From Candidatus Saccharimonadota bacterium (lineage in GTDB: Bacteria > Patescibacteriota > Saccharimonadia > Saccharimonadales > UBA4665), in NCBI GenBank assembly GCA_014377695.1, contig JACMPA010000008.1, forward strand, positions 1-44,421: 44,421 nt of DNA, read 5' to 3'. This document shows, piece after piece, positions 12,869-26,784 of the stretch. The position numbers and the translations under genes were made by a program. A model generated the notes under the pieces. That model was not told the DNA's origin. It worked only from the letters and a program-made list of their open reading frames with translations, and made no database searches. Within the stretch, counting starts at the first letter, position 1. Each line of letters opens with the position of its first letter.

Positions 12869-15163
12869 TTACTTCTTTTTGGGTGCAGCGCGGCGCTTAA
12901 AACCACCTTTGCGCTTAGCCGGTGCAGCGGCCAATAACGCCTCTGCTTCAGCCTCAGTTATTGTGGCTGGATCAACATCTTTGGCAATTTTGGCGTTCTT
13001 TTTGCCGTCAGTGATATACGGTCCGTACTGGCCGTTCAGCACTTTAACTTTACCGAATATATTTATTGTTTTAGCGGCTTCGACGGCAAGTTTTTCGGCG
13101 TATAATTCACGCGCTTTGTCTTCGGTAATAGTCAAGGGGTCATCTTCTTTGAGAGACACGTACAGCTTGCCCACTTGGACATACGGACCAAAGCGACCAA
13201 TAGCCGCTTTAATTTCTTCACCCTCAGCCGTTTTGCCGACAACACGCGGTAATTTGAAGGCTTCCAAGGCTTGTTCGAGCGTAACGGTATCGAGCGTGGC
13301 ATCTTTCGGTAATGGTGCAAAATCAGGCTTATCTTCGCTTTCGGTTTCACCCCGCTGCAACATCGGACCATAACGACCAAACCGAGCCATAATTGGCTTG
13401 CCAGATTTAGGGTCTTTACCAATCTCACGGGCTTGGCTGACTTCGGCTCGACTGATATCGGCGGAACTTTCGACAAGTGGGTGAAAATCTTTATAAAAGT
13501 CTCCAATCATGGTTTTCCAGGCCTGCTTGCCTTCGGCAACTTGATCAAATTGAGCCTCGACTTTGGCCGTAAAGTCGAAGTCAACGACACTCGGAAAGAA
13601 TTTGACTAAGAAATCGGTAGTGACATCGGCTATGCCAGTCGGAACAAGCTTGTTCCGATCGGCCCCCGTTATTTCGGTACGATTCTCGGGTTTGACGGTA
13701 CCCTTTTCGAGTATCAACGTGCGAACTTCACGTTCTTTGCCTTCCAGGTCGGTTTTTTCGACGTACCCACGAGTCTGGACGGTGTTGATAGTTGGCGCGT
13801 AGGTACTAGGACGACCAATACCTAGTTCTTCAAGTTTTTTGACGAGCATAGCTTCGGAAAAGCGGGCGGGACCGCGGCTGAATACCTCTGTGGCAACAAC
13901 CGTTTGGGCTTCCAGTGAGTCCCCCACTTTGAGGACCGGTAGAATCACATCGTCCTTGCCACCACCGTAGACCTTCATAAAACCGTCGAACGCTAGAACT
14001 TCACCTTTGGCGATGAACTTTTCGTTTTGGGTGCTAACCGATATGCTAACTTCAGAGCGTTCGATTTTGGCCTCGGTCATTTGAGACGCAATGGCCCGCT
14101 GCCAGATCAATTGGTACAGTTTTTTGGCACCTGGCTCATCACCGGCGCTCAGGCGGCTGAACTCTGTTGGACGAATGGCTTCGTGTGCTTCCTGAGCACT
14201 ACTGTTCTTAGTTTTGAATTGGCGCTGTTTATGATAATTATCTCCATAGGCACTCTTGATTTGCTTTTCGGCAGCCGAGATGGCCAAGGTGGATAGTAGT
14301 GTACTATCGGTACGCATGTAGGTGATGTCACCGTTTTCGTACAGGCGTTGGGCTAAAGTCATAGTTTGGCGAACGCTAAAGCCAAGGCGACGAGAAGCCT
14401 CCTGTTGCAGGGTACTGGTCGTAAATGGTGCACCCGGACTGCGCACACCAGGCTTCTGAGCGATGTCATCAACTGTATAGCTAGCGGTTTTGACGCCTTC
14501 TAGCCATTTCTGAGCGTCTTCTATGACGCCAAGCTTGGTGTTTAATTCGGCTGGAATTTCTTCTTTGCCATGCTTAAATATAGCGGTTACTTTAAACGAG
14601 CTTTCGGCTTCAAATGCTTTGATGTCGCGCTCGCGCTCGACGATCAAGCGCACTGCAACGGATTGGACACGACCAGCGCTGAGGCCAGTACGGACCTTTT
14701 TCCAGAGCACTGGGCTGAGTTCGTACCCAACCAAACGATCCAAGATGCGCCGAGCTTGCTGGGCATCAACCAAATTGAGATCGACAGTCCGCGGATTCTT
14801 TATAGCGGCTTCGATAGCTGGCTTGGTTATCTCGTGGAACACGATGCGCTTTGTTTTGGTTGGATCAAGTTTGAGGGCCTGCGCCAAATGCCAGGCAATA
14901 GCTTCACCTTCGCGGTCCTCATCGGATGCTAGCCAAACCTCAGCGCCTTTGGCAGCAGCTTTAAGTTCGCGGACGACTTTAGTTTTGTCGGCACTTACTG
15001 CATAAGTTGGTTCGAAGTTATTCGCGATGTCGATGTTGATGCCTTTGGCCGGCAAATCGCGGATATGACCAAAACTACTGAGAACAGTATAATCTTTACC
15101 GAGAAATTTCTCGATAGTTCGGGCTTTGGCTGGTGACTCAACGATAACTAGATTTTTTGCCAT
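12869..15163 (-). CDS. topA: DNA topoisomerase I (type IA)
   Basis: 764 residues. Relaxes negative supercoils by transient single-strand cleavage. The Toprim domain opens at residue 1 with E9 in VIVESPAKA and the metal-binding DEDREGE at 81-87. The catalytic tyrosine is Y282 in DITYMRTDST. The C-terminus has no cysteine zinc fingers but about four repeats of the type KDPKSGKPIMARFGRYGPML, each with F/Y-G-(R/Q)-(F/Y)-G-P, as in the C-terminal repeat domain of actinobacterial enzymes, and ends in a lysine-rich tail (KRKGGFKRRAAPKKK). The ATG lies five bases after a TAGAAT -10 element and lacks a Shine-Dalgarno site, so it may be leaderless. Confidence 0.96.
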   Translation of the reverse strand: MAKNLVIVESPAKARTIEKFLGKDYTVLSSFGHIRDLPAKGINIDIANNFEPTYAVSADKTKVVRELKAAAKGAEVWLASDEDREGEAIAWHLAQALKLDPTKTKRIVFHEITKPAIEAAIKNPRTVDLNLVDAQQARRILDRLVGYELSPVLWKKVRTGLSAGRVQSVAVRLIVERERDIKAFEAESSFKVTAIFKHGKEEIPAELNTKLGVIEDAQKWLEGVKTASYTVDDIAQKPGVRSPGAPFTTSTLQQEASRRLGFSVRQTMTLAQRLYENGDITYMRTDSTLLSTLAISAAEKQIKSAYGDNYHKQRQFKTKNSSAQEAHEAIRPTEFSRLSAGDEPGAKKLYQLIWQRAIASQMTEAKIERSEVSISVSTQNEKFIAKGEVLAFDGFMKVYGGGKDDVILPVLKVGDSLEAQTVVATEVFSRGPARFSEAMLVKKLEELGIGRPSTYAPTINTVQTRGYVEKTDLEGKEREVRTLILEKGTVKPENRTEITGADRNKLVPTGIADVTTDFLVKFFPSVVDFDFTAKVEAQFDQVAEGKQAWKTMIGDFYKDFHPLVESSADISRAEVSQAREIGKDPKSGKPIMARFGRYGPMLQRGETESEDKPDFAPLPKDATLDTVTLEQALEAFKLPRVVGKTAEGEEIKAAIGRFGPYVQVGKLYVSLKEDDPLTITEDKARELYAEKLAVEAAKTINIFGKVKVLNGQYGPYITDGKKNAKIAKDVDPATITEAEAEALLAAAPAKRKGGFKRRAAPKKK

Positions 15164-16969: not shown

Positions 16970-16998
16970 TTGACATAAAGACATATATTTGCTAGAAT
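16970..16998 (+). promoter_or_regulatory. Strong promoter of the structured RNA
   Basis: TTGACA at 16970-16975, a 17-base spacer and TAGAAT at 16993-16998, with an extended -10 TG at 16990-16991. This is the best promoter match in the window and points away from dprA into a region with no ORF. Start expected near 17005. Confidence 0.85.
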
Positions 16999-17004
16999 AG
17001 CAAT

Positions 17005-17396
17005 TAATACGATTCTTCATGAATTGTAATGCACCTTATAAACCCATTCTAACACCTGATGAACTTCGGTTCTGATGGAGTTTGTTAGATTGTTTTAGAG
17101 TCGACAAAAGTTGTTACCCTCCGCTTTAGTCCTCGGCCACGCCTAGCGTGGGACTCTAAGGCAAACTAACCCCTTTAACTAGAAGCCCGCGCTACTTAGG
17201 TAGTTAAGGCTCCCGGTTCTATAGCGAGCCTAAATGGTTCTAGCCTTCTTCGGAAGGCGGAGACACACACCGCATTGTTTGGTGCTGATGTTTCGCTTCC
17301 GTGGTGGGTTGAAGGGTGGATCGGAGACGCAGCAGCAATGTTCGTCTCCATAAATGAGCCTTCGAGCGGTGCCCACCCCCTCTCGGAGGCTCTTTT
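17005..17396 (+). ncRNA. Unassigned highly structured RNA, about 390 nt
   Basis: A non-coding stretch between a strong promoter and an intrinsic terminator, dense in complementary segments. Helices visible by eye: 17048-17054 with 17083-17089, capped by GAAC-TTCG-GTTC (17061-17072); 17095-17102 with 17152-17159, enclosing CCACGC/GCGTGG (17137-17151); TTAACTA/TAGTTAA (17175-17207); GGCTC/GAGCC (17209-17230); GCCTTC-TTCG-GAAGGC (17243-17258); GGAGACG/CGTCTCC (17323-17349); GGTGGG/CCCACC (17303-17377). CTCCGC at 17119-17124 could pair with GCGGAG at 17257-17262 as a pseudoknot. Size and strength suggest a housekeeping RNA, but the RNase P core, a tmRNA tRNA-like end and the SRP tip were not found. 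The family is unknown to me. Confidence 0.7.
17356..17396 (+). terminator. Terminator of the structured RNA
   Basis: GAGCCTTCGAG (17356-17366) pairs with CTCGGAGGCTC (17382-17392; one G-T pair) and is followed by TTTT. It defines the 3' end of the structured RNA. Confidence 0.85.
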
Positions 17397-17565
17397 ATTT
17401 GGTTTCGTTATCCTTTGAATGCACTCATATCAGAACGCAATCGATACAGCCTTTGTTAGCAGGTAATGGATGCTGATGTAGCGCTGTTCAACTCGCTGCG
17501 GCTCAACTGATTATTAGCGTCAGTGTATCGGCACTGTTAGGTGATCTGTGATTAGAGGTGAGAAC

Positions 17566-26121: not shown

Positions 26122-26784
26122 ATGGCCAGACTCTTTCGTGACAACCACGTATCACACGATCCCGTTTGGCATGTGCAACTGGCAATGTTGTTGGCAATCG
26201 GTCTGCAGCTAGCTCTGCCAGATACGTTTTCGGTCGGCACCCGCTACGCGGTGCCAGTAGCCGAGTTACTGCTGCTAGCCTTTCTGTCGTATACGACGCC
26301 ACGGCAGCGAGTATTTAAATCACGTATTCGTCGATTGAACGTCCTTTTGCTAATTGTAATCACCGGTGCCGGTAATGCGTATTCGCTGGGAGTAATCACT
26401 GATCGGTTGCTCTCGGGTGGGCATTTATCAGATGGCCGGGCATTAATATATGCAGCCATCAATATATTTTTGACCAATATCATAGTGTTTGCTTTATTTT
26501 ATTGGGAAATGGATGGTGGTGGCCCAGGCGAGCGCCAACATATCGCCAAGTACGACCAAGATTTTTTATTCCCGCAGCATCACAATGAAGATTATAAGCA
26601 TCCAGATTGGAAGCCGATGTTTATTGACTATCTGTACGTTGCTAGTACTAATGCCATGACTTTCGGCCCCGCTGACACTAAACCCTTAAGTCGACGAGCT
26701 AAGATGTTGATGCTGCTCCAATCGATGATCTCGCTAGTTGTGGTGGCGCTCGTTGCTTCCCGTGCCGTCGGCATCCTCAATTAA
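26122..26784 (+). CDS. Multi-pass membrane protein, DUF1345-like
   Basis: 220 residues with about five transmembrane segments (near 18-36, 41-57, 70-90, 105-128 and 195-217). Between the last two, the segment YVASTNAMTFGPADTKPLS resembles the loop of DUF1345 membrane proteins, which in turn resembles an ion-channel pore loop. Function unknown; channel activity is a guess. Its stop codon abuts the end of the convergent rlmH gene with no spacer. Start chosen for the extended -10 promoter just upstream. Confidence 0.75.
   Translation: MARLFRDNHVSHDPVWHVQLAMLLAIGLQLALPDTFSVGTRYAVPVAELLLLAFLSYTTPRQRVFKSRIRRLNVLLLIVITGAGNAYSLGVITDRLLSGGHLSDGRALIYAAINIFLTNIIVFALFYWEMDGGGPGERQHIAKYDQDFLFPQHHNEDYKHPDWKPMFIDYLYVASTNAMTFGPADTKPLSRRAKMLMLLQSMISLVVVALVASRAVGILN

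Follow-up and report, generated by a model that had tools for sequence, protein, structure and literature searches.

The window, that is, the whole 44,421-nucleotide stretch of Candidatus Saccharimonadota DNA analysed here, carries an independent RNA gene on its plus strand at 16970–17397, consisting of a promoter, about 390 nt of RNA and a terminator. It is virtually certain that this is a stand-alone gene for a large structured non-coding RNA, and the RNA is a new family that is not in Rfam. It shows the general hallmarks of structured non-coding RNA, namely covariation beyond phylogeny, a conserved promoter and terminator, and no open reading frame (ORF). The explanation that best accounts for the data as a whole, and which is considered probable, is that of a new, vertically inherited, order-wide RNA that acts in trans with a dedicated partner.

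Very few stand-alone RNAs are known to be present throughout nearly an entire bacterial order. RNase P RNA, tmRNA, SRP RNA and 6S RNA are order-wide RNAs of this kind and are central to the cell. Because the RNA described here is confined to one host-dependent, genome-reduced lineage, it likely serves something basic that is particular to that lineage. Saccharibacteria can be cultivated with their hosts and some are genetically manipulable, so that expression, essentiality and the partner are directly testable, and the covariance models built here would let annotators mark the gene.

Promoter, Terminator and Folding of the RNA Gene

The outline of the gene is as follows, its 5′ end being placed from the promoter and its 3′ end from the terminator:

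16970–16998, plus strand: promoter (−35 TTGACA, 17 bp, extended −10 TGC-TAGAAT)
17005–17397, plus strand: RNA gene, about 390 nt
17356–17397, plus strand: terminator hairpin and T-run

The −35 box (16970–16975) and the extended −10 box (16990–16998) match the promoter consensus at 11 of 12 positions. Across 80 homologs, TATTGACA and TGCTAnAAT of the promoter are conserved; the promoter is present in 99 of 100 diverse homologs, and the TG of the extended −10 in 80 of 98. The predicted transcript of 393 nt (17005–17397) has a folding energy of −152 kcal/mol (z = −7.1), which none of 100 shuffled sequences equalled, and it contains no ORF of 60 aa or longer, only short ones of at most 51 aa. At the 3′ end, a GC-rich hairpin (17356–17391), the loop of which carries UGCCCACCC, precedes the T-run, and TTTT follows the hairpin in 91 of 99 homologs. 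The loop of about 15 nt lies beyond the reach of a simple terminator scanner; the stem covaries strongly in relatives, its pairs reaching E = 0 with double changes on 4–15 branches. The original prediction, made from the letters of the window, of a near-consensus promoter driving about 390 bases of highly folded, ORF-free RNA up to a terminator is borne out at the level of the sequence.

Distribution across Genomes

Full-length homologs were found in relatives, as would be required of a genuine RNA gene. Plain blastn detected the RNA in 81 of 99 relatives; with nhmmer, 80 genomes yielded copies that span the whole gene, −35 box and terminator included. When 380 genomes of the phylum were searched with the core covariance model R1, 23 matched, and every one of them belongs to the order of the window; the 348 phylum genomes outside that order gave no match, an absence that holds as far as models so rich in sequence information can detect. 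With a second model, R2, the RNA was found in 218 of the 295 order genomes, almost always in a single copy; the misses clustered in genera g82, g84 and g88 (family f35). Absence of the RNA from these three genera was considered and rejected: the misses reflect a limit of R2, and diverged copies were found there by a relaxed search and by a third model, R3. The latter matched 50 genomes, only one of which (G548) was also in the R2 list, and the union of R2 and R3 covers 267 of 295 order genomes and 209 of the 223 high-quality ones (≥90% complete, ≤5% contaminated). The figure of 267 is a lower bound, since the filters were strict and two further genomes (G473 and G260) have copies recognisable by eye.

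A pattern scan of named genomes gave at least 118 stretches. Among the matches listed, nearly all are titled Candidatus Saccharibacteria, Saccharimonadia or bacterium/Patescibacteria bins, and they include the complete genome CP011211 and Candidatus Microsaccharimonas sossegonensis. One contig that carries the RNA pattern is titled Chloroflexi bacterium PMG_070 (SEAL01000024.1, locus L247) and probably belongs to a mislabelled or contaminated bin. One genome, G480, has two copies (L218 and L219, on contigs C9 and C4), both at contig ends, which may represent a rare duplication or an assembly effect.

Conserved Helices and Covariation

The proposed fold comprises the following elements in addition to the terminator hairpin:

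17008–17028, plus strand: P1, a 5′ hairpin that persists although its sequence changes (97 homologs, median z −3.1)
17046–17088, plus strand: P2 hairpin (CUAAC...GUUAG), its apical part variable and its 3′ strand GUUAG overlapping P3
17084–17102, plus strand: 5′ strand of the core helix P3, with P3 covariation at E ≤ 0.05
17108–17126, plus strand: B hairpin inside P3, with a covarying AAGU/ACUU stem (one pair E = 0.007)
17152–17170, plus strand: 3′ strand of P3, covarying with the 5′ strand
17171–17179, plus strand: 5′ strand of the long-range helix P_C, CCCUUUAAC, its pairing kept in homologs
17180–17302, plus strand: central hairpin domain, with covarying pairs 17239/17261, 17240/17260, 17263/17291 and 17267/17286
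17303–17316, plus strand: G-block GGUGGGUUGAAGGG, its left part complementary to the terminator loop and 17308–17316 forming the 3′ strand of P_C
17323–17349, plus strand: optional extra hairpin, absent in many relatives (alignment and spacing counts)

Covariation among relatives had been named as a check on the original prediction, and significant pairs were indeed found against a tree-based null, using our own implementation of the tests rather than R-scape. When substitutions were replayed on the tree as a null, an initial alignment of 80 sequences gave 17 significant pairs (E ≤ 0.05). The terminator stem and central domain hold all of them, and a few of those within the stem are transitive. 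In the core alignment, both sides have changed in 12 of the 21 pairs of P3 and the B hairpin while 98% of cells remain paired, which exceeds all 500 shuffles and every slid control. A phylogeny-aware test on 96 diverse homologs, aligned by anchored segments, placed 18 of 18 significant covarying pairs inside the proposed helices, that is, in the terminator stem with one pair at its loop, in P3 and in the B hairpin. The central domain varies in size; in relatives, the two P_C strands lie about 55 to 170 nt apart.

The long-range helix P_C, formed by CCCUUUAAC and GUUGAAGGG, closes the 3′ half of the RNA and shows many compensatory changes, such as CUCUUCAAC/GUUGAAGAG, GCCUUUAUC/GAUGAAGGC, CCCUUUGUC/GACGAAGGG and CCCUUUCAC/GUGAAAGGG. 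Counted over the nine pairs of this helix, both sides changed together on a single branch 13 times, with pairing retained in nearly every cell. The two strands of a homolog pair fully with each other in 93 of 96 cases; 20,000 permutations, which ignore kinship, averaged 68.5 such cases and never exceeded 77. No single pair of P_C reaches significance because the strands vary too little.

A possible pseudoknot had also been drawn by eye. The terminator loop UGCCCACCC, which hardly changes among homologs, could pair with the complementary GGGUGGG just upstream of the 3′ strand of P_C, and judging from this complementarity the two likely form a pseudoknot. The loop sequence GCCCACC, which also served as a search anchor with one mismatch allowed, is identical in aligned homologs, and in one relative (L228) the P_C strands have changed with GGGUGGG left unchanged. 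The pseudoknot is likely rather than proven, since there is little variation in either strand and GGUGCG, a mismatch to the terminator loop, stands in several f35 genomes; the earlier suspicion has the complementarity in its favour.

Two finer details of the original prediction fared less well. The symmetric TGAT/TGAT loop in a hairpin near the 5′ end, proposed to form tandem G-A pairs, occurs among 100 homologs in the species of the window only and is not supported as functional, and the TTCG tetraloops are not conserved and sit in variable hairpins. A relationship of GUUUUAGAGC...GCUCUAAAAC to CRISPR repeats was likewise rejected: in family f35 the sequence changes completely and the helix stays. 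In the window, GUUAG is able to pair with either of two CUAAC copies (17049–17053, 17084–17088 and 17166–17170 being the segments concerned). Separate strands serve P2 and P3 in L126, L088 and the genera g82/g88. Given the two CUAAC partners here and the separate strands there, an exchange of strands between P2 and P3 is possible.

Conserved Unpaired Blocks and Possible Modes of Action

Two conserved segments lie outside the helices:

17031–17045, plus strand: block A, GCACCUUAUACCCCC (GCACCTTATAAACCC in the window), conserved and apparently single-stranded
17115–17122, plus strand: B loop, UACCCUCC, unpaired and 95–98% identical at each position

Most positions of block A are 79–98% identical among the 96 diverse homologs. 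In genera g82/g88, block A becomes GCACCUAAAUAA and the B loop UUACCUCC. No partner in cis was supported for either segment, and pairing of block A with the G-block was rejected, no covariation between them being seen. Blocks A and B are therefore best described as putative recognition sites. They are not strictly required everywhere: the RNA copy of a family f20 genome (L367 in G473) has lost the B hairpin and keeps block A, P3, P_C and the terminator loop, and a few lineages are without the CCCC part of block A.

It appears fairly probable that the RNA acts in trans with a dedicated partner. The RNA would be abundant, and this single partner, for which a protein is the preferred candidate, would bind the two near-invariant, unpaired C-rich segments that the fold exposes, GCACCUUAUACCCCC and the UACCCUCC loop. 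The RNA would then work as a housekeeping ribonucleoprotein or as a global regulator. In RNAIII of Staphylococcus and in CsrB/RsmZ-type RNAs, short motifs, C-rich in the case of RNAIII, are displayed in loops. The new RNA resembles them in showing short motifs in loops, but no homology to them was found, and it differs from them in its stricter blocks and its long-range closing helix.

Blocks A and B read like parts of the 16S rRNA tail CACCUCCUU. A link to translation through loops resembling this tail can be put forward tentatively. That the RNA is a further, essential housekeeping ribonucleoprotein RNA of a whole SRP-less order, possibly acting at the ribosome or co-translationally via its 16S-tail-like C-rich segments, is a more specific reading that we hold to be rather unlikely.

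A base-pairing regulator, in which loops A and B would mimic the anti-Shine-Dalgarno sequence and bind GGAGG/AGGUG in mRNA leaders, thereby sequestering these mRNAs or steering their translation, is judged unlikely. The B loop UACCCUCC (ACCUCC in g82/g88) and CACCUU of block A resemble CACCUCCUU, and a constant target would fit the near-invariance of both segments. Shine-Dalgarno-like motifs (GGAG/GAGG/AGGA) occur at −17 to −3 of 7 of the 28 window genes, against 1 of 28 further upstream, which is in favour of such a target but leaves it in only about a quarter of the genes. Moreover, the extended target GGAGGGUA is absent from the plus strand of the window, and its two occurrences on the minus strand include the RNA gene itself; the flanks are conserved more strictly than Shine-Dalgarno pairing would need. 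A TATAAT-like box lies close to the start codon in 8 of 28 window genes, compared with 2 of 28 at control positions, as at the gene starts at 26122 and 24337 and at the minus-strand gene 12869–15163; this suggests that these genes are leaderless. From the two sets of counts, a Shine-Dalgarno-binding role is possible and not favoured, and action with a dedicated, probably protein, partner remains the preferred reading.

Comparison with Known RNA Families

Searched against the 4227 families of Rfam 15 at gathering score, the RNA stretch gave no match, and the whole window gave two tRNAs only. With E up to 10, the stretch yielded only a chance-level snoRNA match (E = 0.3), and among 20 diverged relatives the best relaxed match (E = 0.033, in L187) was far below the cut-offs. 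The Rfam search, proposed earlier as the check on novelty, hence returned no family for the RNA stretch or for these relatives. The literature searched held no description of such an RNA, and the TM7x expression paper and a Patescibacteria review make no mention of one.

A diverged version of RNase P RNA, tmRNA, SRP RNA or 6S RNA is nevertheless the alternative that size, single copy and strong promoter would call to mind, and the lack of SRP RNA in these genomes leaves a slot open. It is very unlikely on the following grounds. The RNase P models of Rfam have no match at the RNA locus, and the RNase P RNA of the same genome lies elsewhere (G000:C9:2849-3219, 229.6 bits). Neither RF00023 nor ARAGORN (tRNA-like domain, tag ORF) matches the locus, and the tmRNA genes of relatives are located at other loci. 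The new RNA is thus like RNase P RNA and tmRNA (RF00010, RF00023) in its length of 350–400 nt, single copy, order-wide presence and long-range pairing, but unlike them in having no matching core or tRNA-like domain. In the genome of the window, which is 89% complete, no tmRNA scores above the Rfam cut-off, and it may be missing or diverged.

Bacterial SRP RNA (RF00169, RF01854) is similar in being stand-alone and of housekeeping type. The RNA has no SRP domain IV/helix 8 and no match to RF00169 or RF01854, however, and neither bacterial model detected SRP RNA in the sets of 13 and 15 order genomes that were searched whole, with the same searches positive in 11 of 14 control genomes. The Ffh M domain (PF02978) is missing too: none of 15 order genomes has it, against all of 14 controls. 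No SRP RNA is therefore to be expected in these genomes, and an Ffh-bound RNA substituting for SRP RNA is ruled out on the same ground. The absence of the RNase P core, the tmRNA tRNA-like domain and the SRP tip from the stretch, noted originally by eye, was in this way confirmed. The SRP system as such seems to have been lost in the order, neither SRP RNA nor PF02978 being detectable in the 15 genomes tested, in keeping with a report that Parcubacteria have no SRP (PMC4508563). As to 6S RNA, its Rfam models have no match in the window or in the 20 diverged relatives, and the conserved fold differs from the long 6S hairpin with its central bubble.

Genomic Locus and Inheritance

The usual gene order is topA(−) dprA(−) [RNA +] pth(−) der(−), with the RNA on the opposite strand; the neighbours carry the names that we presume from their translated sequences. 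In tblastn searches of the window neighbours against 201 loci of relatives, pth was found at 170, topA at 164, dprA at 148 and der at 134. In g82/g88, topA is on the other side and follows the RNA in place of pth. Because the locus is conserved, the RNA gene can be considered old and vertically inherited.

Being nearly always beside dprA and/or pth, the RNA might be thought a cis element of one of them, as a leader, antisense RNA or attenuator. This is highly improbable: it is divergent from dprA, convergent with pth and has its own terminator, and in g82/g88 it is topA rather than pth that follows. Since it is transcribed away from dprA and toward the 3′ end of pth, the RNA is the leader of neither neighbour.

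OLE, GOLLD, ROOL and HEARO are large bacterial RNAs with a complex fold, the function of which was unclear when they were discovered. The new RNA is equally large and complex in fold, but it occurs almost throughout a single order instead of being scattered, and it lies off phages and plasmids. GOLLD, ROOL and HEARO are often found on phages or mobile elements, yet a mobile or phage-derived origin is hardly credible for an RNA that is single-copy, is fixed at one locus across families and has no match in 72,556 plasmid and 50,697 phage records. The resemblance to a housekeeping RNA, seen at the outset in size and promoter strength, is supported by the single copy, the order-wide presence, the strong conserved promoter and the fixed locus.
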